37,654 bases of DNA, taken from positions 1-37,654 of the forward strand of contig JAIOIU010000102.1 in NCBI GenBank assembly GCA_019912425.1, given 5' to 3'. Source of the stretch: Candidatus Methylomirabilis tolerans. GTDB taxonomy: Bacteria > Methylomirabilota > Methylomirabilia > Methylomirabilales > Methylomirabilaceae. A model generated the notes under the pieces. It was given only the letters and a program-made list of their open reading frames with translations. It had not been told where the DNA came from and searched no databases. Numbering within the stretch: position 1 is the first letter of the stretch; every line of letters begins with the position of its first letter. Below, piece by piece: positions 27,728-37,504 of this stretch. Both the position numbers and the translations under genes were made by a program.

Positions 27728-27796
27728 CCGAACGGGGTAGGCTCGTTAAATCCGGACCGCCAAACTACCTGAGCGGCGTGCTGCCGCTGGCCATCC

Positions 27797-27941
27797 GGCA
27801 GTCTGTGCTCGCTTCCGATCCCGAGACCACCCGTAGTGCCCCTTCGGTTCTACGCCGACGTTCACATTCCGCGTGCCATCATGCTTGGTCCCAGACTCCG
27901 CAGCGTGGACGTACTCACGCTCAAGATGATCACGTCTCCGC
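27797..27941. repeat. Direct repeat, copy 1 (DUF5615 region)
   Basis: About 145 bp closely similar to 29341-29488, in the same orientation and 1.54 kb apart: GGCAGTCTGTGCTCGC against GGCAGTCTCTGCTCGC, then ACCACCCGTAGTGCC against GCCACCCGTAGTGCC, and GATGATCA near the end. Both copies contain the start of a DUF5615-type gene with some 40 bp of shared upstream sequence. Confidence 0.8.
27836..27941 (+). pseudogene. DUF5615 PIN-like toxin fragment, copy 1
   Basis: From the GTG at 27836, VPLRFYADVHIPRAIMLG and RLRSVDVLT match the N-terminus of DUF5615 (Mut7-C/PIN-like) proteins, in which the FYADVHIP aspartate is a predicted metal ligand. After VDVLT the frame is lost: alignment with copy 2 shows two single-base losses (ACCGCGCAAGATGATC against ACGCTCAAGATGATC), and homology stops near 27941. 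About 35 of an expected 110-120 codons remain. DUF5615 proteins are usually toxin-like partners of DUF433 antitoxins; none is visible here. Confidence 0.65.
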
Positions 27942-27955
27942 ATAGATTTGTAGCC

Positions 27956-27985
27956 TTGACAGAGTGTAGCCTAGAGGCTACACTC
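27956..27985 (+). promoter_or_regulatory. Promoter with palindromic operator for the antitoxin gene
   Basis: A consensus -35 TTGACA (27956-27961), a 17-bp spacer and a -10 TACACT (27979-27984) are overlapped by a perfect inverted repeat: GAGTGTAGCC (27962-27971), TAGA, GGCTACACTC (27976-27985). The right arm covers the -10. A dimeric HTH protein bound there would block RNA polymerase. The HTH antitoxin starting at 28047, 62 bp downstream, is the natural candidate for autoregulation. Confidence 0.75.
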
Positions 27986-28046
27986 TTCGCAAGAACGATC
28001 TGTTCGCCAGGTAGCTTGACTCGTACGCAACCTCTAGGAGCAGACG

Positions 28047-28346
28047 ATGAGTAAAACCGTGACCAGTCGCTACGATGTAGCCGAGCACCTTCGAACCCCA
28101 GAGGAAATGGCGGCCTACCTTGAGGCGTGTCTTGAAGAGGCGAAGGGCGATGCCACCTTCATCGCCAAAGCGCTGGGAGACATTGCGCGTGCCAAGGGCA
28201 TGGCACAGGTCGCCCGCGATGCCGGCCTCTCCCGCGAGAGCCTGTATAAAGCGCTGTCCGGCGAACGCAGCCCCAGCTTTGACACCATCCTCAAGGTGGT
28301 TGCCGCGTTAGGATTGAAGTTGCACGCTGAAGCCGCTCATGGGTGA
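28047..28346 (+). CDS. Addiction-module antidote (HigA-like), orphan
   Basis: 99 residues. The N-terminus SRYDVAEHLRTPEEMAAYLE followed by EACLEEAKGDATFIAKALGD and IARAKGMAQVARDAGLSRES matches the putative addiction-module antidote family (TIGR02684, HigA-like). The XRE-type helix-turn-helix is MAQVARDAGLSRESLYKALS near residues 52-71. In the usual operon a RelE/HigB-like killer gene (TIGR02683) precedes and nearly overlaps it. Here 27986-28046 is too short for one and the upstream sequence is a toxin remnant of a different family, so the antitoxin looks orphaned. Its palindromic operator is intact. Confidence 0.85.
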   Translation: MSKTVTSRYDVAEHLRTPEEMAAYLEACLEEAKGDATFIAKALGDIARAKGMAQVARDAGLSRESLYKALSGERSPSFDTILKVVAALGLKLHAEAAHG

Positions 28347-28449
28347 CGCCTCACTGGAAGCTAGTGGAAAAAGACCTGAGGGGATTATAAATAATGGCTC
28401 TTCGTGAAATCCTATTGGGGGACACATTGAAACACTTTCGGCGGATGTA

Positions 28450-29046
28450 ATGAGCAACGGGGACGCTCGATTTGTCGCGCCGACCACCAGCCGGCTGCGA
28501 GTGATGCGCGACGGAGGGAGTATCATCCGTAGCGCGCGCATTCCCAAACCGGTCGCACTGGTGGACACGCGGGAGCGGGAACCCTTTCCGCTCCACGCGA
28601 ACCACCCGAACTGGATTGGCGGGGAAAGGCTGGCCACGCTGAACACTGGCGACTACACGTTGGAAGGGATGGAGAGCCTCCTCTCGCTGGAGCGAAAGAG
28701 CCTGGCGGACTTAGTGGCGTGCACGGTAACCTACCGACGGAGATTTATTGCCGCCTGCGGTCGGCTCGCTCGGTTTCGCTGAAAGGCCATTCTAATCGAA
28801 GCAACCTGCGAAGACCTCAAGGGCGGGTTGGGGCAGTGCGACATCCCCTCCGAGGTCCATCCCAATTCTATTTGCGGAACCCTGGACGCGATCGAAGCAA
28901 AGTTTGGCATCCCTGTCATCTACACTTCCACCGTACAGGATCTTGCGACGGAGCGCGCCGCGAGCTGGCTCTCAAAGCACTTCACCTACTGGTGGTTGGA
29001 GGAGCATGGCTACGGCCGGGTATTGATCGACTCGGACGGGCTGTGA
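28450..29046 (+). pseudogene. ERCC4-type nuclease interrupted by in-frame TGA
   Basis: A single frame of 199 codons broken once by TGA at 28780-28782. The first half holds PVALVDTREREPFPLHANHP (the ERCC4/XPF V-D-x-R-E metal site), then LNTGDYTLEGM and LLSLERKSLADLVACTV (the E-R-K-S motif). The frame then reads RLARFR, stop, KAILIEATCEDLKGG and continues without shift to SEVHPNSICGTLDAIEAKFG, IPVIYTSTVQDLATERAASW and ends VLIDSDGL at 29046. Homologous nucleases of this phage-borne type carry an aromatic residue at the stop position (R-W/Y-K/A-A-I). The loss is most simply a TGG-to-TGA change. Without readthrough the product would be 110 residues with the catalytic motifs but no C-terminal half. 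Confidence 0.75.
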
Positions 29047-29200
29047 CCGGGAGGGGACACTTCCACACCCAGACGCCGATACCACGAAAGGGCGGGCCGC
29101 GCGAGGGTTCGGGTAGGAGTTAATCGGAAGGATTTTGGCTCCTGCTAACTTCCACAAAAACGGTGATTGTGTCCTCCAACCTGTATTCTACCGTTTCAAT

Positions 29201-29265
29201 GAGTAATACACGTGTAGCAGAGGGGAAGACCAAGAAAGGATTTCAACAAATAGTGTCTGTCCCTT
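29201..29265 (+). repeat. Solo right end of a Y1-transposase mini-element
   Basis: 65 bp (GAGTAATACACGTGTAGCAG, then AGGGGAAGACCAAGAAAGG through AAATAGTGTCTGTCCC) about 88% like the right end of the mini-element at 35442-35506. No matching left end lies upstream. The stretch 29047-29200 shows nothing I can support. Confidence 0.75.
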
Positions 29266-29340
29266 TTATCCTTTTTCTTTTACGGACGGTACGGTAGCAC
29301 AGAGAAAGTCCTCGCCTAGCTATTCCTTCGCTGGTTCTTC

Positions 29341-29488
29341 GGCAGTCTCTGCTCGCCTCCGACCCCAAGGCCACCCGTAGTGCCATTTCGGCCCTACGCC
29401 GACGCTGGTATTCTGCGTGCTATCATGCTTGGTCTTTGACTCCGCGGCCTAGACGTGCTGACCGCGCAAGATGATCAAGCCTCCCGCT
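29341..29488. repeat. Direct repeat, copy 2 (DUF5615 region)
   Basis: Second copy of the repeat at 27797-27941, same orientation. Homology begins at the same upstream position and continues into the DUF5615 reading frame; copy 2 extends further into that gene. Confidence 0.8.
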
Positions 29489-29585
29489 TTACTGATCCGA
29501 TGTTGTTGGATCGCCCCACCAGCCTGGGGCGCATACTCTTCTCTTTCGACACCGACTTGCTCCTTCACGCTGGTCGCGACCAGTG
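29380..29585 (+). pseudogene. DUF5615 PIN-like toxin fragment, copy 2
   Basis: The GTG at 29380 opens VPFRPYADAGILRAIMLGL, then an in-frame TGA (29437-29439, where homologues have arginine), then LRGLDVLTAQDDQASRFTDP, LLDRPTSLGRILFSFDTDLL. This follows the DUF5615 pattern to about residue 65: the FYAD start, VDVLTAQ-D, DPELLDRAT, LGRVLFSxDxDLL with its second metal aspartates. The remaining half of the domain (AGIIYAHQ onward) is missing and replaced by a fragment of another gene. A nonsense change plus truncation makes this dead. Confidence 0.75.
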
Positions 29586-29696
29586 CTCGTCCACCAGATC
29601 GAGACGGACCTCCATCGATGCCAGGCCAAGGCCGTCACTAACTTCAAGAAACACCTGCCCGCTCCGCAGACAGGGAGAACGTACCCAAGATCCTGA
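29583..29696 (+). pseudogene. YhcG (DUF1016) nuclease fragment
   Basis: In a frame different from the DUF5615 remnant, 29583-29696 reads VLVHQIETDLHRCQAKAVTN then FKKHLPAPQTGRTYPRS and stops. The I-E-x-x-L..R.Q.KAVTNF..xLPAPQ pattern is the middle linker of YhcG/DUF1016 PD-(D/E)XK nucleases, which continues DLAxxTLKDPYxFDFL in intact members. Only about 28 codons of that family remain, abutting the toxin remnant. It is a recombination scar. Confidence 0.5.
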
Positions 29697-29714
29697 AAAC
29701 GCGAATATTATCTA

Positions 29715-29745
29715 TTGACATTGTAATATTCTCTGTATTACTGTA
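29715..29745 (+). promoter_or_regulatory. Promoter with palindromic operator for the RHH/GHKL operon
   Basis: TTGACA at 29715-29720 is followed 18 bp on by TACTGT-like -10 bases (29739-29744). Between them, and touching the -10, lies an inverted repeat GTAATA (29723-29728), TTCTCTG, TATTAC (29736-29741). The gene starts at 29778 with GGAGAGACG before the ATG. The AT-rich palindrome is a likely operator for a ribbon-helix-helix or winged-helix regulator, plausibly the first gene's own product. Confidence 0.6.
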
Positions 29746-29777
29746 CACGCCGTGATGCTAAGCATAGAGGAGAGACG

Positions 29778-30935
29778 ATGATTGTCTGTTTTAACTGTGA
29801 CTCTGAAACGAAGGTCAAAATGGATAGCCTGATGGCCAATGATCATTATACTGACTACAGTGAATTGATCGCCGTGGCTATGGCGAATCTCTGGATGCTG
29901 GATCGAGAGATTGCCGAAAAGGGCGCACTCGTGATCGGCGAAGGGACTCCGCTGTCCTTAAGCGTCCCATCATCCCGGCCTGTCAAGATTGCAAACCCGG
30001 TTCCAGCCACCTCGTCAGTCCCGCCGTCGCGCGAGCGCCCCCCCGCCAAAACCGCCGCGCCTCCCGCCGAACGTGCGCCGCTTTCCATCCCAGACTTGTT
30101 CCTGCCCGTTGGCTTGGATGGATTATCCGTCGCAACAGTCGATATTGAACGCCAAGAACCGATTACCGCGGATTCGTTCACGCTAGACCGCTGGCTGTTC
30201 GGCCAGTACAACAAACTGCTGCCCGCCAAGGCCAACTGCCGCGCCCTGGTCCGACTGGCCGCCGAGCACCCGGACGGCGAGCCGCTGGAAGAAACCGCCC
30301 CCCGCATCGCCGAAGTCGCCGCGCTGCTGGGCGACTGGCTGGCCGATTACGATCGCCGCCACCAGATCGGACGCGACGACGCCATGGCGACCGCCTTTCC
30401 CCGAAGCGGCCCCAACGCCGAAAAAAGCCGCGCACGCTACGCCAATCAGTTCGTCGGCAGCGTCAACAGCCAAGGGGCGCTCTCCGGCCTGCTCCAGGAT
30501 TATCGCTTGGCAGGTCTCGCGCCGGGGAACGGCCCACGTCTGCTGCCGACGAAACAAGGGATGAGCTTGGCCCGGCTCGCCAATCCCATCCTCGACGGAC
30601 ACCGGACGGAACCGGCGCAGAGGTTTTCAGCGGAAGAGACCGCGTTTCTGCTAAAGCACATCCGTTCCTTCGTGCCGGTGGAGGCGTTCGCCTTCCGAAC
30701 ACTCCTGCGGGCGATCGCCGATGCCGCGGACACGCCAGACAAACTGGATGAAGCGTTGCGCGTGTTCGTGCCGACCGACTCCAACCGTTCCCTCAGCTCG
30801 TCGTTCCTCACTTCGCAGCGTTCCGGCGCGCTCTCGCGCATGGCCGACCTTGGCCTGATCTCCCGCGTCCGGAAAGGGGTAAGGGTATCGTATGCAATGA
30901 CCGAGCAGGGACAAATCTTCATCAAGTCCAAGTAA
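29778..30935 (+). CDS. Putative RHH/winged-helix DNA-binding protein
   Basis: 385 residues; I know no named family. Residues 1-45 (ETKVKMDSLMANDHYTDYSE then LIAVAMANLWMLDREI) look like a ribbon-helix-helix or CopG-type dimerisation segment: strand, helix, then a Y-x-D-Y-S-E turn and helix. Residues about 60-105 are a Pro/Ser/Ala linker. A helical middle (SFTLDRWLFGQYNKLLPAKA, then LVRLAAEHPDGEPLEETAPR) follows. The C-terminus from about 290 (FLLKHIRSFVPVEAFAFRTL to SRMADLGLISRVRKGVRVSY) resembles a winged helix. The middle (about 30180-30600) is strikingly G/C-richer than both ends, which suggests mosaic origin. It lies 26 bp before the GHKL ATPase and shares its promoter. Role as repressor and as sequence-recognition partner are inferences. 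Confidence 0.65.
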   Translation: MIVCFNCDSETKVKMDSLMANDHYTDYSELIAVAMANLWMLDREIAEKGALVIGEGTPLSLSVPSSRPVKIANPVPATSSVPPSRERPPAKTAAPPAERAPLSIPDLFLPVGLDGLSVATVDIERQEPITADSFTLDRWLFGQYNKLLPAKANCRALVRLAAEHPDGEPLEETAPRIAEVAALLGDWLADYDRRHQIGRDDAMATAFPRSGPNAEKSRARYANQFVGSVNSQGALSGLLQDYRLAGLAPGNGPRLLPTKQGMSLARLANPILDGHRTEPAQRFSAEETAFLLKHIRSFVPVEAFAFRTLLRAIADAADTPDKLDEALRVFVPTDSNRSLSSSFLTSQRSGALSRMADLGLISRVRKGVRVSYAMTEQGQIFIKSK

Positions 30936-30961
30936 CCGTTCGGATAAGGAGAAAAGCGATC

Positions 30962-33481
30962 ATGACCGAACACGAAGCCAAGGAACTTTGTCTTGCGCTG
31001 ATGCGAGCGGACTCAGAAGACGAGGTTATCGACCTGCTCAAGAAGGCCGGATACTGGGATAAACAGGAAGATTGGCGTTTCTATGGTGACTACGAGAACA
31101 ACTACAACGCCATCGGCAACCAGCAAAGCCGTCCGGATGCCGCGTTGGTGGAAAAGCTCGTGAACTCCGTCGATGCCAGACTAATGAATGAATGTTTGGC
31201 TCACGGTATGAACCCCGAAGATGCAAGCGCCCCGCGAGGCATTCAAGAAGCAGTCGCTCTCTTCTTTGATGGTGAAAGTGCAGGAAAGACCTCGTTGGCG
31301 GGGTGCATTCGCGATTGGACCGACAGCAAGAGAACGGACGTTGCTCGGGGAATCGCTTTGACTGCCACAGGAGCGAAACCGGGAAGCGGGAAACCTTGTT
31401 TCACAATCGTCGATGCCGGAGAAGGTCAAACACCTGAGCAGATGCCATACACCTTATTATCTCTTAATCGTTCCAACAAACTGCGCATCCCTTTCGTGCA
31501 AGGTAAGTTCAACATGGGCGGAACTGGTGTCCTAAAGTTTTGCGGCAAGCACAATCTCCAACTGGTCATCAGCCGAAGGAACCCTACCATCCTTCAGCAT
31601 TGCAACGGGGCGCAACAGGACGATGGCAAATGGAGTTTCACGGTTGTTCGGCGTGAAGACCCGCAAGGAAACCGCAGAAGTTCCGTATACACATACCTTG
31701 CGCCTGTTATGGCAAATGCCAACAGCGACCACAAACGTGTTCTTCTTCGATTTTACGCTAACACCCTTCCCATATTCCCAGAAGGTAAGCAGCCCTATGC
31801 CAGGAGCGTAGAGTGGGGAACGCTTATCAAACTTTACGAATACTCGGCTACTGGGTTCCAATCGCATATCTTGATGAAGGATGGTCTCCTCGGACGCGTT
31901 GATTTGCTGCTACCGGAAATTGCCTTACCTATGAGATTCCATGAGTGTCGCGACTACAAAGGGCACGGAGGAAGTACCGAGACGACCCTTACAGGCGTGC
32001 GCGTCAGGCTCGAGGACGACAAACAACAGAACCTTGAGGAGGGTTTTCCTGCTTGTGCGCCGATGATGGTTAATAGCGAGGAAATGCTCGTGTCCATCTA
32101 TGCATTCAAAAAGAAACGCAGCGAAGCTTATCGCAAGAACGAGGGAATTATCTTTGTAGTTAATGGGCAGACCCATGGACACCTAACACAGGATTTCTTC
32201 TCGCGAAAGAAAGTCGGACTGTCGTATTTGGCCGATTCGATTCTCGTGAGCACTGATTGTACAAAGCTAAGTGGTCGCGCCCGTGAAGACCTTTTCATGA
32301 ACAGCCGGGACCGTTTAAGCGGCGGCGATCTTCGCCAGCAAATAGAAAACAGTCTTGAGGAGCTTCTAAAGCAGCACCAAGGCCTCCGGGAGTTGAAAGA
32401 GCGAAGGCGCCGCGAAGAAATCGAATCCAAGCTGGACGATGCAAAACCTCTTGAGGACATTCTCGATAAGCTATTGAAACAATCGCCGGCTCTCTCGAAC
32501 CTGTTTCTTCAAGGCCTGAGAGCCTCCACACCGTTCAAAACGGTTGCAGTACAAGCACAAGAACAAGAGTTCAGGGGGCGGCGTTTCCCGACGTTCTTTA
32601 AGTTCAAAGGCAAAGACTACGGGCATATTCTCGACCGAGAATGCCCCATCAACATGAGATGCCGGTTGGCTTTTGAGACCGACGCTGAAAACGAGTATTT
32701 CTCGCGAGCCATTGATCCCGGTGAATTCCACTTGTTGTTGAAGCGAGGCGAAGGTGAGTCATCCGTACAAAATTACGTGCTGAATCTCCAGAACGGAATA
32801 GCTACGCTCAGCCTTTCGCTTCCCGAAGATACCACTTTGGGCCAGAGCTTGCGGTATAGCGCTACGATGAACGATTACTCCCGTACGGAGCCTTTCATCA
32901 ATACATTTCAGGTGACCGTGAAAGAAGAGCAGCAAGCGCGCGGGAACAGCAGCGATAGAAGGAAGCCTCCAAGCAAAGAAGAAGGAGAAGACCGGGAAAG
33001 ATCTTCTGGAATCAAGCTGCCAAATATTCGATTGGTCGAAGAAAAGGACTGGCAGGACCAATCGCCTCCATTCGATAAGTATGCTGCAATGCGCATTATC
33101 AACGCCGGTAGCAACGAAGACGGCGAGGAAGAGTCTGTATCGAACGTTGTCTATGACTTCTACATCAACATGGACAATCTCTATCTCAAGACTGAATTGA
33201 AGAGTACGAGAGCCGAGTCAGCCTTGGTAAGGGCGCAATTCAAATTTGGCATGGTATTGATGGGCCTTGCGCTGCTTCAACGGGACATTGAGGACCAGCG
33301 GAAGCAATCTGGCGGCGAAGAACAGGCGGAAGACGAGAATGGCAACGGAGTGAGCATAGAGAAGAAGGTGGAAGAGTTCTGCCGGGCGGTTGCCCCGGTG
33401 GTAATCCCGATGATCAACTCGCTTGGCTCCCTATCCGTGGAAGATGAGCCTGTTCTTGGTGCGTCTGGCGAAGCAACGTGA
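30962..33481 (+). CDS. GHKL (MutL/MORC/Hsp90-like) ATPase, defence-type
   Basis: 839 residues. The N-terminal ATPase has the full GHKL motif set: N-box EKLVNSVDARLMNECL (E64, N68, D71), G1 box VDAGEGQTPEQM (D151-G155) and G2 box GKFNMGGTGVLKFCGK (181-190 onward), preceded by LSLNRSNKLRIPFVQ. The G2 loop forms the ATP lid. A transducer-like domain follows to about 450, then a charged coiled-coil-like stretch (LKQHQGLRELKERRRREEIE), beta-rich modules (about 520-650), a Ser/Lys/Glu linker and a helical C-terminus. I see no nuclease motif. Such ATPases occur in MORC/paraMORC and MZA-type defence systems. GC content is visibly lower than in the core genes, consistent with horizontal gain. A GGATAAGGAG site precedes the ATG. 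Confidence 0.85.
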   Translation: MTEHEAKELCLALMRADSEDEVIDLLKKAGYWDKQEDWRFYGDYENNYNAIGNQQSRPDAALVEKLVNSVDARLMNECLAHGMNPEDASAPRGIQEAVALFFDGESAGKTSLAGCIRDWTDSKRTDVARGIALTATGAKPGSGKPCFTIVDAGEGQTPEQMPYTLLSLNRSNKLRIPFVQGKFNMGGTGVLKFCGKHNLQLVISRRNPTILQHCNGAQQDDGKWSFTVVRREDPQGNRRSSVYTYLAPVMANANSDHKRVLLRFYANTLPIFPEGKQPYARSVEWGTLIKLYEYSATGFQSHILMKDGLLGRVDLLLPEIALPMRFHECRDYKGHGGSTETTLTGVRVRLEDDKQQNLEEGFPACAPMMVNSEEMLVSIYAFKKKRSEAYRKNEGIIFVVNGQTHGHLTQDFFSRKKVGLSYLADSILVSTDCTKLSGRAREDLFMNSRDRLSGGDLRQQIENSLEELLKQHQGLRELKERRRREEIESKLDDAKPLEDILDKLLKQSPALSNLFLQGLRASTPFKTVAVQAQEQEFRGRRFPTFFKFKGKDYGHILDRECPINMRCRLAFETDAENEYFSRAIDPGEFHLLLKRGEGESSVQNYVLNLQNGIATLSLSLPEDTTLGQSLRYSATMNDYSRTEPFINTFQVTVKEEQQARGNSSDRRKPPSKEEGEDRERSSGIKLPNIRLVEEKDWQDQSPPFDKYAAMRIINAGSNEDGEEESVSNVVYDFYINMDNLYLKTELKSTRAESALVRAQFKFGMVLMGLALLQRDIEDQRKQSGGEEQAEDENGNGVSIEKKVEEFCRAVAPVVIPMINSLGSLSVEDEPVLGASGEAT

Positions 33482-33504
33482 TCCAATCGCCGACGAATAG
33501 GGAG

Positions 33505-34704
33505 CTATGAACGCTTGTGTATCAACAGGACTTCTTTTGAAGAAGGTGTACTGCCTTTGCGGTCCGCGTAAAACTTCCTATTGGGGACAGTTCGCCATGA
33601 TCGGCCGTCAATGGCGTGAGGCAGATCATCGAGAAGGACTTCATCAAAGCCACACTCTTGAAGGATTTTCAGAAAAAGAGGCAATTGCCATTCAGGGGTC
33701 GAGAATGCTACAAGCTGGACAAGCCACGTGTTTGTGTCAGCGATAGTGGAAAGCGCCATGTAGCATTCCCTCATGTTTTCAAAGTAGCCTTCCAGCCCCC
33801 TTTGATTGCGATCTCCAAAGGTATAGAACGCCGCTCCATTCCCATCAAGGCAATTTGCGATCCAATACGGTGCGGGGGTTTCTTTGCGCCCGTTGATCTG
33901 CCAGCGATGATAGAGCACATGCACTCCGGGATAAGGTGGTGAGGTAAGAATGAGTCTTGGAGCGGAAGAAAATGGATAGTTGGGTGGTTCTGCAATGTCA
34001 TGGGCGGAAAGATAGAGACATGCAGGTGCGGTATCGTCGTTGCTGGAGCATCCGAACCTGAGCAAATCAAGTTCTCTGCGAAACTCGAGCGCTCCTTCGA
34101 TCATCTCCTCGGCATAGGAGATAAGCTGCTCTCTGAAATCACGGGCCGATGGGTGATATTTGCGGCAATCGACCGCCCATTGTGCGGTCTTGAGCAGGAG
34201 GCACCTAACAAAGTCTCGCTGTCTGTTGTTGTGTAGTGAATCCAGGCCAGCAAGGGCAATCTCTATGGTCTTTCGAATCGGCCAAGTGGTGCGTCCACTG
34301 ATGTTTCTTTGGTAGCCTTGAGATATCCAATCAACCGGCCTGTCCGAAATTCTCGTAAGTTTCAAATCCGACTGCGCTTGCTCGACCCATGTGCGAACGT
34401 CTGAAATATCCTTATCGGTGACTAGTGTGGTTTTCGTTCTGGAAACAAATACGGCCAAGCTGTTCAAATCGGTCCCAATACTTCTACGGCCCAAACGCAT
34501 GGCTTCAACAAGGGTCGTTCCGCCACCCATAAAGGGATCATACACGATCTCGCCCGGCTGAGTGAAAAATTCAATAGCGGCCTCAGCAAATCGCGGCGAA
34601 AAACGAGCGGGATAACGGTAGAACGCATGAGTCAATCCAGTGACAGGCTTCTTATCATTGATAGACTCGATAAGAGAAGAGATGTCGGTCCGTATTTCTT
34701 TCAT
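33505..34704 (-). CDS. DNA methyltransferase (TSPPY type)
   Basis: 399 residues. Motif I for S-adenosylmethionine is VYDPFMGGGTTLVEAMRLGR (D56-T63) and motif IV is LILTSPPYPGVHVLYHRW (T254-Y258), the catalytic TSPPY box of amino-methyltransferases acting on N4 of cytosine or N6 of adenine. About 190 residues separate the two, room for a target-recognition region between them. HAFYRYPARFSPRFAEAAIE near residue 26 is a common start in these enzymes. The stop faces the end of the GHKL gene across 23 bp, so the two transcripts converge. The XRE regulator lies 185 bp upstream on the same strand. Target sequence unknown. Confidence 0.92.
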   Translation of the reverse strand: MKEIRTDISSLIESINDKKPVTGLTHAFYRYPARFSPRFAEAAIEFFTQPGEIVYDPFMGGGTTLVEAMRLGRRSIGTDLNSLAVFVSRTKTTLVTDKDISDVRTWVEQAQSDLKLTRISDRPVDWISQGYQRNISGRTTWPIRKTIEIALAGLDSLHNNRQRDFVRCLLLKTAQWAVDCRKYHPSARDFREQLISYAEEMIEGALEFRRELDLLRFGCSSNDDTAPACLYLSAHDIAEPPNYPFSSAPRLILTSPPYPGVHVLYHRWQINGRKETPAPYWIANCLDGNGAAFYTFGDRNQRGLEGYFENMRECYMALSTIADTNTWLVQLVAFSTPEWQLPLFLKILQECGFDEVLLDDLPHAIDGRSWRTVPNRKFYADRKGSTPSSKEVLLIHKRS

Positions 34705-34857
34705 TCAGGTTCGCCTCGGTCAATTATTGGAGTAATCGTGTGCGCACCGCCTAAGCACATATTCGATAACGTCACTCGCCGGATCTCGGTCCGTGACTGA
34801 GCAGGTCGGAGAGTGCAACCCGGTGAGGCCGCGGGCATAACCCGGGGTTAGACGCCC

Positions 34858-34886
34858 GGACTCGCAAGGTCGCGACTTGGGAGTCC
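34858..34886. other. Stem-loop behind the XRE gene
   Basis: GGACTCGCAAG (34858-34868), 7-nt loop, CTTGGGAGTCC (34876-34886): 11-bp arms with one mismatch. It begins 4 bp after the XRE stop in the transcript direction and is not followed by a T-run, so it is either a weak terminator or a 3'-end processing hairpin. The rest of 34705-34857 shows no gene. Confidence 0.5.
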
Positions 34887-34889
34887 ATC

Positions 34890-35102
34890 TCACTTACTCT
34901 TCTTGCTTCCGACTTCCTGCCACAATTCCTCGACGCGGCGCTGGGCCAGGGGCGACGGCCTGCCCTTCCCGTTCTCCCAGCGGTTGACGGTGGAGACCGT
35001 GACGCCGAGTCTTGCGGCGAACTGCTCCTGTGTCAGATCCAACGCGGCGCGAAGCGTCTTTACGGTCCTCTCCGAGGCTTTATGGGCCATTCCTCGATTC
35101 AT
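34890..35102 (-). CDS. XRE-family helix-turn-helix regulator
   Basis: 70 residues, hardly more than one helix-turn-helix. ERTVKTLRAALDLTQEQFAA then RLGVTVSTVNRWENGKGRPS is the XRE/Cro fold with the QEQFAARLGVTVSTVNRWENG core, and PLAQRRVEELWQEVGSKKSK is the tail helix. An ATG four codons later (35090) is an alternative start. It is upstream of the methyltransferase on the same strand, the position of a controller (C) protein of a restriction-modification locus, although C proteins normally lie beside a restriction nuclease as well. Confidence 0.85.
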   Translation of the reverse strand: MNRGMAHKASERTVKTLRAALDLTQEQFAARLGVTVSTVNRWENGKGRPSPLAQRRVEELWQEVGSKKSK

Positions 35103-35179
35103 CCTTTGGCAATTCCAGCGTTCCCAAGCATCTTACAAAGCAAATGATAGGTTACTTGCACGGCAGAGTCAAGCGCTTC

Positions 35180-35210
35180 AGCATGGCATCCCGAATTTCC
35201 TGTAACCGAG
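35180..35210. repeat. Short dispersed repeat, copy 1
   Basis: AGCATGGCATCCCGAATTTC followed by CTGTAACCGAG is nearly identical to 37253-37283 (one T/G and one A/G change in the conserved part). Same orientation, 2.07 kb apart, lying outside the genes between them. Confidence 0.75.
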
Positions 35211-35215
35211 GGAAA

Positions 35216-35508
35216 AATAGGGATAGATACTATTATCGTGACAATTCGTGGGGCTTGCGATCATGATCGTGCATGCCACGGATTGCTCGAATCGTTGCTC
35301 CCGGCCACCCGTATCATGTGAGGCAACGAGGGAATGATCGCCAGGCGATCTTTCGGAACGACAGCGATTCGAAGGCCCACGACGACAGAACGGCTACTGC
35401 GAAGAGACGGGTTCATCTGGGAGGTGCGCAGGACACTGGACGAGTAAGACACGTGTTGCAGAGGGGAAGACCAATAAAGGATCTCAAGAAATAGTGTCTA
35501 TCCCTATA
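35216..35508 (+). mobile_element. REP-associated (Y1) transposase mini-element
   Basis: About 293 bp bounded by 19-bp inverted repeats, AATAGGGATAGATACTATT (35216-35234) and AATAGTGTCTATCCCTATA (35490-35508), 17 of 19 pairing. Inside, 35273-35494 is a 73-codon frame that begins PRIARIVAPGHPYHVRQRGN, the start of REP-associated tyrosine transposases (IS200/IS605-like Y1 fold). It then jumps to a C-terminal-like tail, QRGRPIKDLKK. The catalytic H-x-H and tyrosine segments (about 150 residues) are deleted, so it can move only with a transposase supplied elsewhere. A solo copy of its right end lies at 29201-29265. Confidence 0.75.
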
Positions 35509-35579
35509 TCCTATATCCATTCAGGCGATTACGTACCGAAGGCGCCCAGGGTTGGCTCGCGGGGACAAGCTCGAAGCGC

Positions 35580-37082
35580 TCATCGAAGCCCCGCAAGTGC
35601 GCGCAGCCGCTCGTAGAGCCGCACCATGCCCATGCTGTCGCGCTCACAGTAACGAAGGAGGTTGTGCCGGAGCACCTGCCGCTCGGTGGCGGTGAGGGCG
35701 TCGGCACCGAGCAGCAGCGTCTCAAGTGCCGCCGATGCGGAGCCGCCGTCCTGGATCTCGAGGTCGTTGTAGCCAAGCCCTGGCACGAGCGCCGGCAGGA
35801 CCTTCTTGATGCTGAAGCTTCCCCCGAAGTCCGGGTGATAGACGTGGTCGCGCACAATCGGAAGAAGATCGCGGATCCGACGCGAGAGCGCTACTAGCTC
35901 GCCCTCCATGTGCGGGAGCACTTCGATCAGTCCGTCGATGCACCGTTGCTCGAAGGGCGCGTTGTAGGCGAGCACCGTGTTGACGCCCGCACACGCCGCG
36001 ATGAGCGCGTGTGCGAGCTGCTCACGCGGGTCGTCGGGGCCCTCAGTCAACCATGCGCGGTGTTCGACTCCGTCGGCCTTGAGTACGTGGCAACTGAACT
36101 GCACCGGCACCAGGGCGTAAGGGCGGCAGCCCGGCCAGACCGGGATGGCGGGGTTCACGGTCTCGAAGTCGAGGAAAGCGATCGGCGGAGCCATGGAAGC
36201 GAGTGCGCGGCGGAGGTCACGCTCGACGATCACTTCGCCCGCCCGGACGCTACGAATCTGCCGGCGCGCTGTGGGCGAGGCAGCGAACTTGCGCGGCAGG
36301 TCGAAGAGCGTCTTGTAGCCGTCGGCGACGTACTCCTCCGCCTTGGCCTTACGGATCCCATAGAGCGTGCTGACGTGGTGAACCGGGAGGGGAGGCCAGC
36401 ATCGTTTGATGAACGGGCAGGCATACGGCGTCGTGCAGTGCGGACCGGTCTTGACCTCCGGCAGCGGACCCGCCAACGTCGACAGAAGCTCCCCGGCCTG
36501 TTTCGGCACGGCTCGCAGCGGGGAGCGGATCAGCGACGTGACGTTCTCGCGCACAAACAGGTTCGAGAGGTCGGGGTGACGGCACTCGCGGTTGAGGTGC
36601 ATGACCTCTGCACGTGTGACCACGAGCCCGGCGCGTCGGACGACGTGCGTCTGGACGGCGACATCAGGGATGTGCTCGTTCTTGATGTCGAGCGTGGCCT
36701 TAACCTCGACCAGAACGAACCCGTCGCGGCGCCGTTGGAGAATGTCCACGGCGACGAAGATGCCGTCCTCGAGGAAGCTCGCCTCGTAGACAACCGGCGC
36801 TCCATCCGCGATTGCCAGCGCCGTGTCGGCCAGTCTGCGCTCGATCTCGTGGTGCGGGAGGTCGATAAGGACACCGCCTGGCACGAACGTGCGCGCGAGC
36901 TCGCCGACGCGCCTGCCTCGCTCGAAGATCACCCGCTGCAACTCCTCGCCGGCGGCGAGCTCCGGCGCCTCGGGCTCGTGCACCATCCACCAGAGCATCT
37001 TCGGACACTGCAGTCCTGATACGAACTGGGACTTCGAGAGCCGTATGACTGGTCGCACGCTGGTCCCCCTTGACTTTACCAC
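35580..37082 (-). CDS. DUF2779 fused RecB/Cas4-like and DEDD-like nuclease
   Basis: 500 residues with two nuclease halves. Residues about 1-240 are PD-(D/E)XK, RecB/Cas4-like: VYEASFLEDGIFVAVDILQR then DGFVLVEVKATLDIK gives the D and E-x-K active site. Four cysteines (SGLQCPKMLWW near 25, then C-x4-C-x5-C in the KTGPHCTTPYACPFIKRCWP segment) would hold a 4Fe-4S cluster. Residues about 290-495 are the DUF2779 domain with RNase-H-like DEDD features: PPIAFLDFETVNPAIPVWPG (D-F-E), YNAPFEQRCIDGL, then LRYCERDSMGMVRLYERLRA. Family function is unproven; single-strand DNA processing in repair or defence is inferred. It is on the minus strand after the accessory genes. Confidence 0.9.
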   Translation of the reverse strand: MVKSRGTSVRPVIRLSKSQFVSGLQCPKMLWWMVHEPEAPELAAGEELQRVIFERGRRVGELARTFVPGGVLIDLPHHEIERRLADTALAIADGAPVVYEASFLEDGIFVAVDILQRRRDGFVLVEVKATLDIKNEHIPDVAVQTHVVRRAGLVVTRAEVMHLNRECRHPDLSNLFVRENVTSLIRSPLRAVPKQAGELLSTLAGPLPEVKTGPHCTTPYACPFIKRCWPPLPVHHVSTLYGIRKAKAEEYVADGYKTLFDLPRKFAASPTARRQIRSVRAGEVIVERDLRRALASMAPPIAFLDFETVNPAIPVWPGCRPYALVPVQFSCHVLKADGVEHRAWLTEGPDDPREQLAHALIAACAGVNTVLAYNAPFEQRCIDGLIEVLPHMEGELVALSRRIRDLLPIVRDHVYHPDFGGSFSIKKVLPALVPGLGYNDLEIQDGGSASAALETLLLGADALTATERQVLRHNLLRYCERDSMGMVRLYERLRALAGLR

Positions 37083-37252
37083 TGGAGTGCATTGAAGAGG
37101 CCTAGGAGTCGAATGGCCTGGCGGCTACGTCGCATCGCTCTATCCCAACGACTGCTCTGCTACACACGGGACCCTCAGAGGCCAACAAAATAGCTCAGGA
37201 GTACTCGGAGCGACTCACTCTATCCTTCGACTGCAAAGGGTGTCAAGGCGAA

Positions 37253-37283
37253 AGCATGGCATCCCGAATGTCCTGTGACCGAA
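37253..37283. repeat. Short dispersed repeat, copy 2
   Basis: AGCATGGCATCCCGAATGTC, CTGTGACCGAA: second copy of the 35180-35210 repeat in the same orientation. Confidence 0.75.
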
Positions 37284-37333
37284 GGTGCCACAGTGTTGAT
37301 GTATACTATGGTTCTCAAGGAAGCAAAAGACCC

Positions 37334-37391
37334 TGTCATCTCAACACTCGCCTGGCGCTGTGGTGCGTAGTGTGTTTGCAGCGAGATGACA
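37334..37391. repeat. Inverted repeat upstream of dinB
   Basis: TGTCATCTC (37334-37342) pairs with GAGATGACA (37383-37391), and inside it AACACT (37343-37348) can pair with AGTGTGTT (37369-37376), giving a branched hairpin of about 58 nt. It sits about 110 bp before the dinB start and could be a regulatory hairpin or a mobile-repeat end. Confidence 0.55.
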
Positions 37392-37504
37392 CGCTGTACC
37401 GAAGCGCGGTATGATCTGACCCAGGGTGGAATCACGAGCTTGGACGGAGAGGGCGACGGTTTACCGTGCGAAGGGCTCTGCTACCAAGGAGAGCAGTGAG
37501 GTCC

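Follow-up and report, generated by a model that had tools for sequence, protein, structure and literature searches.

A mobile, apparently unnamed gene cassette built on a GHKL ATPase, with a linked DNA methylase and a swappable upstream partner

The question raised by this locus is what is done by a large protein that begins with the motifs of a GHKL ATPase and continues into a long C-terminal part of no familiar family. The gene (P0001, 839 amino acids) lies at 30962..33481 on the forward strand of the window, by which we mean the whole stretch of 37,654 nucleotides of Candidatus Methylomirabilis tolerans that was analyzed. It is supported by the open reading frame call, its relatives, its motifs and a structure model, and an AAGGAG ribosome-binding site stands 5' of the frame. 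Since full-length homologues of 38-73% identity occur in many phyla, we regard it as a genuine gene. Its context, which was absent from the original prediction, tells more than its tail: P0001 forms the conserved centre of an apparently unnamed, widely distributed cassette consisting of a DNA-binding partner, the GHKL ATPase and a DNA methylase.

All three motifs of the nucleotide site lie on the forward strand. The N-box covers residues 64-72 (EKLVNSVDA, 31151..31177) and follows the pattern E64xxxN68xxD71(A72), the G1 motif covers residues 151-155 (DAGEG, 31412..31426), and the G2 motif covers residues 181-189 (GKFNMGGTG, 31502..31528) with the pattern G181....G186G187xG189. They had been described as textbook motifs, and all are present in the expected order, with E64, N68, D71, D151, G153, G155, G181 and G186 identical in 71/71 relatives of the family alignment on which the conservation figures for P0001 are based. 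Judged from the sequences, this identity far exceeds chance. Nevertheless, no model in Pfam, NCBIfam or PADLOC matched P0001, and neither the protein nor its family profile nor a C-terminal profile matched a PDB sequence. No HATPase Pfam match was obtained for P0001 at E <1 (two relatives reach only 0.1-0.15), and HHalign of its profile against MutL and further GHKL proteins from related genomes gave an alignment confined to the G1 region. The missing GHKL profile match is a matter of sensitivity and not a feature that defines the superfamily. As the protein is unseen by these sequence searches, its assignment rests on motifs and predicted fold, and by these P0001 is a protein of the GHKL ATPase superfamily.

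The AlphaFold2 model (monomer) computed from the family alignment has a mean pLDDT of 83 and a pTM of 0.81. A Foldseek comparison of its first half with the PDB returned TopoVI-B, the 43-kDa GyrB fragment, MORC2 and Hsp90/TRAP1 with a probability of 1.00. The TopoVI-B and GyrB matches have 9-13% identity, and their overall TM-score is low because the C-terminal parts are unlike. By model and Foldseek the GHKL (Bergerat) ATPase domain spans residues ~1-300 (30962..31861, forward strand) and is closed by a GT motif at residues 286-287; it is therefore larger than was originally assumed, and ~540 residues remain beyond it instead of the ~600 claimed. An S5-type transducer with an NGQTHG loop follows at residues ~301-455 (31862..32326, forward strand). 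Its presence is indicated by Foldseek matching over the whole 43-kDa GyrB fragment, because that fragment comprises an S5 transducer as well as the GHKL domain; Q403 of the transducer loop occurs in 71/71 relatives. The loop FMNSRDRL at residues 445-452 contains R449 (32306..32308, forward strand), a candidate basic finger with arginine in 71/71 relatives, and from the likeness of the motifs it would be the counterpart of the QTK loop lysine of GyrB.

Beyond the transducer the model predicts charged exit helices at residues 456-517 (32327..32512, forward strand), namely 456-470, 473-488, 495-507 and 509-517. The segment at 455-480 that had been read as coiled-coil-like thus appears in the model as the first two helices leaving the transducer. 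A second monomer model, of residues 534-839, reaches a pLDDT of ~97-98 in both of its folded domains. One is an Ig-like beta-sandwich at residues 540-655 (32579..32926, forward strand; pLDDT ~97), over which the best 50 PDB Foldseek matches of this model, all of them Ig-like domains or Ig-containing chains, are located. The other is a terminal domain of the order b-a-b-b-a-a-a at residues 686-823 (33017..33430, forward strand), which is defined by the high-confidence model and by alignment conservation, with N736 and N739 invariant. The beta-rich modules and the helical end are thus found in the model as claimed. A viral structure library gave matches to T4 RIIA-like, topoisomerase and Hsp90-like proteins, which for the most part fall within the ATPase half.

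The expectation of a C-terminal part outside known families is borne out at the level of sequence, as no family was matched in Pfam, NCBIfam, PADLOC or the PDB. The further proposal that a new effector or DNA-binding fold could hide in the tail has to be narrowed: the S5-like transducer that had been thought of directly after the lid is indeed there at residues ~300-455, residues 540-655 are Ig-like, and only residues 686-823 stay unmatched. No structural match for this terminal domain was seen among the best 50 Foldseek matches, all taken by the Ig fold, and for this reason it is not proven to be a new fold. A Toprim, PD-(D/E)XK or CW module, which had also been considered for the tail, was not found, and neither Pfam nor the structure models revealed a nuclease, Toprim, PD-(D/E)XK or CW module anywhere in P0001. 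A hidden PD-(D/E)XK site in the segment TELK (E745, K747) was considered and rejected, as K747 is helical and both residues vary.

A nuclease might be concealed in the terminal domain, or come in trans. In the first case residues 686-823 would be an undescribed nuclease and the cassette an ATP-dependent restriction enzyme of the MutL or paraMORC3 type. This would agree with the lack of a fold match among the best 50, with the conserved polar set N736, D738, N739, E/D745 and K747, and with described relatives such as VcSduA that have a C-terminal nuclease (PMC12137116). However, the modelled b-a-b-b-a-a-a order with its helical K747 is unlike the strand-borne (D/E)xK of PD-(D/E)XK enzymes, and within the polar set invariance is limited to N736 and N739, while D738, E745 and K747 are substituted in some members. 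We therefore consider a hidden nuclease unlikely.

More can be learned from the neighbouring genes. For this survey, a simple longest-ORF caller was applied to 80 loci, the best matches of a P0001-seeded scan; the frames were clustered, and the assignments were repeated with tblastn. The DNA methyltransferase P0003 (399 amino acids, 33505..34704, reverse strand; Pfam N6_N4_Mtase, E 2.2e-14) is convergent with the ATPase, with 23 bp between the genes, and this convergent arrangement with few bases between the stops is the usual one in the relatives. Its nearest solved relatives are N4-cytosine and N6-adenine DNA methylases, while PADLOC matched it with generic MTase models only. Motif I (DPFMGGGT) and TSPPY are kept; the motif I core residues D56, G60 and T63 and the SPPY at residues 255-258 are invariant in 37 homologues, and from these intact motifs P0003 is presumably active. 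Outside one clade a methylase of this family adjoins the ATPase in 42/43 evaluable loci, a linkage that holds for the nearer relatives because the 80 loci are the best matches of the scan. The sole exception is L076; three further loci, interrupted by contig ends or a transposase, lie outside the 43. The divergence of ATPase and methylase is correlated (Mantel r 0.43, reached in 0/2000 permutations).

The partner gene lies on the same strand 5' of the ATPase, mostly with a 4-bp overlap with the ATPase start or a gap of a few dozen bp. In the window it is P0002 (385 amino acids, 29778..30935, forward strand), whose stop lies 26 bp before the ATPase start, and which has an RHH-like N-terminus, a conserved middle (GQYNKLLPxK) and a winged-helix-like C-terminus; its helix-turn-helix reading is based on a sequence pattern and a weak PaaX match (E 0.0023). 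A homologous partner occurs at the equivalent position in ~14 other loci. The partner families are unrelated to each other and comprise the P0002 type (~375 amino acids), c3 (~75), c4 (~215) and the HTH_17-containing c24, further types being Mrr_N-containing, DndB-like, c20 and an AbrB + PIN pair. Along the ATPase tree the partner type switches at least 17 times. We predict the partners to be mostly DNA-binding, c3 and c20 having no recognisable DNA-binding domain; comparison of the partner-family profiles with the PDB gave nothing useful. In four loci (L003, L015, L018, L051) an AbrB/MazE-like + PIN toxin-antitoxin pair replaces the partner directly 5' of the ATPase. This replacement spans methylase-bearing and methylase-less clades; for L015 the PIN gene alone was checked.

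No cluster of nucleases or helicases recurs within +/-6 kb of the 80 loci, and no PADLOC model matched the ATPase, P0002 or the partners c3, c4, c20 and c24. The literature searched contained no match to the cassette; with preprints, subscription papers and DefenseFinder outside this comparison, it may already carry a name elsewhere.

The cassette is laterally transferred and mobile. The ATPase family occurs in 25 named phyla, archaea included (73 bacterial and 5 archaeal rows of known domain), at least 41 phylum changes are needed among 74 labelled rows, and distances within phyla equal those between phyla. At E 1e-20 only 2/95 genomes of the window's phylum carry the family, and one conspecific genome lacks it. 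Two congeneric genomes have the sequences on either side of the cassette close together: the flanks of window positions 27740/37406 are only 446 bp apart in one (G006), and those of 27725/37394 only 405 bp in the other (G004). The window therefore has an extra, strain-variable segment of ~9.7 kb (27741..37405, no strand assigned) that holds the cassette. GC3 is 0.57 for the ATPase and 0.52 for the methylase, compared to 0.80 for the flanking aconitase gene.

The variable segment contains further elements. At 35214-35512 lies a repeat of ~300 bp bounded by inverted ends, with a reading frame similar to the beginning of a REP-associated tyrosine transposase (MPRIARIVAPGHPYHVRQRGNDRQ); the genus has many copies, one genome (G009) alone more than 20. 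Across the cassette, at 29201-29272, a 71-bp end copy is found in the same orientation. Also 5' of the cassette, an apparently broken ERCC4-like nuclease frame with a stop near 28781 and a weak Pfam match is found at 28450-29060, and a small HTH protein, by eye similar to HigA-type antidotes, at 28047-28346 on the left side of the segment. A DUF2779 / TM0106-type RecB-like gene (P0004) occupies 35580-37082; as a candidate for the missing nuclease it was rejected, since none of the 80 relatives has a homologue of it nearby.

A clade of 35 rows in the ATPase tree (SH-aLRT 100) has no P0003-family methylase at the locus. In 26 genomes of this clade none was found genome-wide with a profile that detected the methylase in G012 and G086, two genomes with the standard cassette layout and more divergent proteins. 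It follows that the ATPase can work without this enzyme and that methylation of the P0003 type is not obligatory; the clade must rely on a different self-mark or trigger, or on a marking enzyme encoded elsewhere. Its flanks include genes for DUF499 (adjoining one relative only), DndB, SIR2, HNH and N6_Mtase proteins. In G008, of the same genus as the window, a divergent ATPase (L156) begins 3 bp past an unrelated methylase whose motif order is permuted (TSPPF ahead of DPFAG), which indicates that linkage to a methylase evolved on at least two occasions. Divergent plasmid relatives (~27-30% identity) have PAPS-reductase, DUF4007, GmrSD_N and SIR2 genes in their vicinity. Taken over all relatives the defence-type neighbours are SIR2, DUF499, DndB, GmrSD_N, PAPS_reduct, HNH and N6_Mtase, and we treat this enrichment of defence genes as suggestive only.

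Some relatives deserve separate mention. In G086 the ATPase is present as two overlapping ORFs (363 + 611 amino acids; L155:3103-6026) between the usual partner and methylase, which may reflect a frameshift, gene decay or a real two-subunit form. A relative of 806 amino acids on a 596-kb IMG/VR contig (L091:5992-8412) adjoins possible phage structural genes and may be a defence-type ATPase carried by a jumbo phage. Beside the divergent plasmid relatives we observed a pair of proteins of 776-786 and 635-680 amino acids (L107:1336-5708, L106:8524-13023). The larger protein has HATPase_c and HATPase_c_3 matches in its Ensifer copy and the smaller has no Pfam match; the pair resembles the HEF_HK / Response_reg_2 pair of PMC8011034.

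We regard it as probable that the three genes form a modification-linked defence cassette, a role for which the gene context gives good support. Starting from the GHKL site, the transducer, the methylase linkage, the exchangeable partners and the mobility described above, we hypothesize a role for the partner and a closure on DNA. The linked methylase would mark the host's own sites, while the swappable DNA-binding partner might locate target DNA or gate expression. The GHKL dimer could then close on unmarked DNA in an ATP-driven manner through GHKL, transducer and C-terminal contacts. Once closed, it may clamp, compact or block DNA in the manner of MORC or topoisomerase gates, and/or recruit host nucleases. 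Since no nuclease or helicase recurs, clamping or compaction is favoured over cutting, and the cassette may trap or silence foreign DNA; the clamp mechanism itself is put forward as a tentative idea, somewhat short of an even chance. The complete statement, a mobile restriction-modification-like cassette for self/non-self distinction with P0001 as ATPase core, no recognisable nuclease and the clamp steps, seems to us about evenly balanced between right and wrong. A wider view would see here a widespread, restriction-modification-like immunity whose restricting part, in place of a nuclease, is an ATP-driven GHKL clamp by which unmarked DNA is topologically trapped or condensed, as a prokaryotic functional counterpart of MORC silencing, with interchangeable sensors and self-marks (two unrelated methylase classes, and possibly phosphorothioation in the divergent relatives); this we hold to be doubtful.

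As unlikely as the hidden nuclease is a MutL-like matchmaker role, in which the ATPase would sense unmethylated or hemimethylated DNA and recruit nucleases or helicases that the host encodes elsewhere than in the cassette. Cooperation with stand-alone nucleases is discussed for MutL and GHKL proteins (PMC2292703), the cassette lacks a nuclease of its own and some of the islands contain nuclease genes, but no nuclease family is recurrent nearby and the ATPase family spans phyla with differing host nucleases. Less probable still is a module of methylation and clamp ATPase that regulates genes, or organises the chromosome, for the host or the mobile element itself and not for defence: the resemblance of the partners to transcription-factor domains (RHH, wHTH, HTH_17) and the location of some copies in likely prophages (L088, L089) would suit it, against which stand the patchy distribution, the heavy transfer and the defence-type neighbours. 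A toxin-antitoxin-like abortive-infection unit, with a harmful ATPase restrained by methylase or partner, would be in line with the AbrB + PIN pair in the partner's place at four loci and with the frequent 4-bp overlap of partner and ATPase, and is very improbable given one clade without methylase and a P0001 without known toxin domain.

If the reading as a modification-linked defence cassette is correct, this cassette, which occurs in 25 or more phyla and is missing from the searched libraries of families and defence systems, would represent a further type of such defence, one with no recognisable cutter. It would also offer a small three-gene bacterial model for DNA silencing by MORC-type ATPases, and the conserved ATPase with its swappable partner permits clean gene-swap experiments.

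With BREX and the phosphorothioate systems (Dnd/Ssp) the cassette shares the character of a modification-linked defence, and divergent relatives of the ATPase adjoin genes for PAPS reductase, DUF4007, DUF499 and DndB. However, PglZ and BrxC of BREX and DndCDE of Dnd lie outside the cassette, and no PglZ/BrxC cluster recurs in the 80 loci. With restriction-modification systems of N4/N6 methylases it has in common a dedicated SPPY methylase whose SAM motifs are intact; in place of an endonuclease, which was recognised neither within the cassette nor recurrently around it, there is a conserved ATPase and a swappable partner. The ATPase module of TopoVI-B and GyrB gives the best structural matches to the GHKL domain and transducer, whereas the Toprim or TopoVI-A cleavage partner of type II topoisomerases is absent from P0001 and its neighbourhood.

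GHKL ATPases within restriction-modification loci are an established theme, with MORC and paraMORC1-5 described by Iyer, Abhiman and Aravind 2008 (PMC2292703), and with paraMORC-like HEF_HK proteins (PMC8011034) and VcSduA, the paraMORC3 / Shedu type I-D defence protein with an N-terminal GHKL ATPase and a C-terminal DUF4263 nuclease (PMC12137116). VcSduA and P0001 agree in an N-terminal GHKL domain followed by a C-terminal extension; P0001 has no DUF4263 and is accompanied by methylase and partner genes. The PD-(D/E)XK domain (DUF4263) at the C-terminus of paraMORC3/Shedu is absent (no Pfam match, and the fold differs), as is the C-terminal TIR of paraMORC4 (by Pfam, and by a model showing an Ig-like and a small alpha/beta domain), and for the C-terminal HxH of paraMORC5 the P0001 family has no invariant or near-invariant histidine in that part.

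The closest described kind of protein is the MORC/paraMORC ATPase of restriction-modification loci, with which P0001 shares the GHKL + S5 arrangement, a C-terminal extension, horizontal spread and links to DNA methylases and restriction-type loci. It differs from these by the extra Ig-like and the unmatched terminal domain, by the missing Pfam GHKL match and by the lack of an endonuclease partner. In most MORC loci a superfamily II helicase is linked, in contrast to the +/-6 kb around the 80 loci studied here, where none recurs. The MORC S5 motif GhXhhpXXRhl reads EGIIFTxNGQTHG in the P0001 family, so that the position of the arginine is taken by Q403 in 71/71 relatives. The traits of paraMORC1 and paraMORC2 are a family-specific C-terminal extension and an ExxxH in S5, and P0001 is set apart here from MORC and paraMORC3-5 only. 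In view of Q403 at the MORC arginine position and of the missing paraMORC3, 4 and 5 modules, we place P0001 outside these named families, as a variant of the MORC/paraMORC kind.
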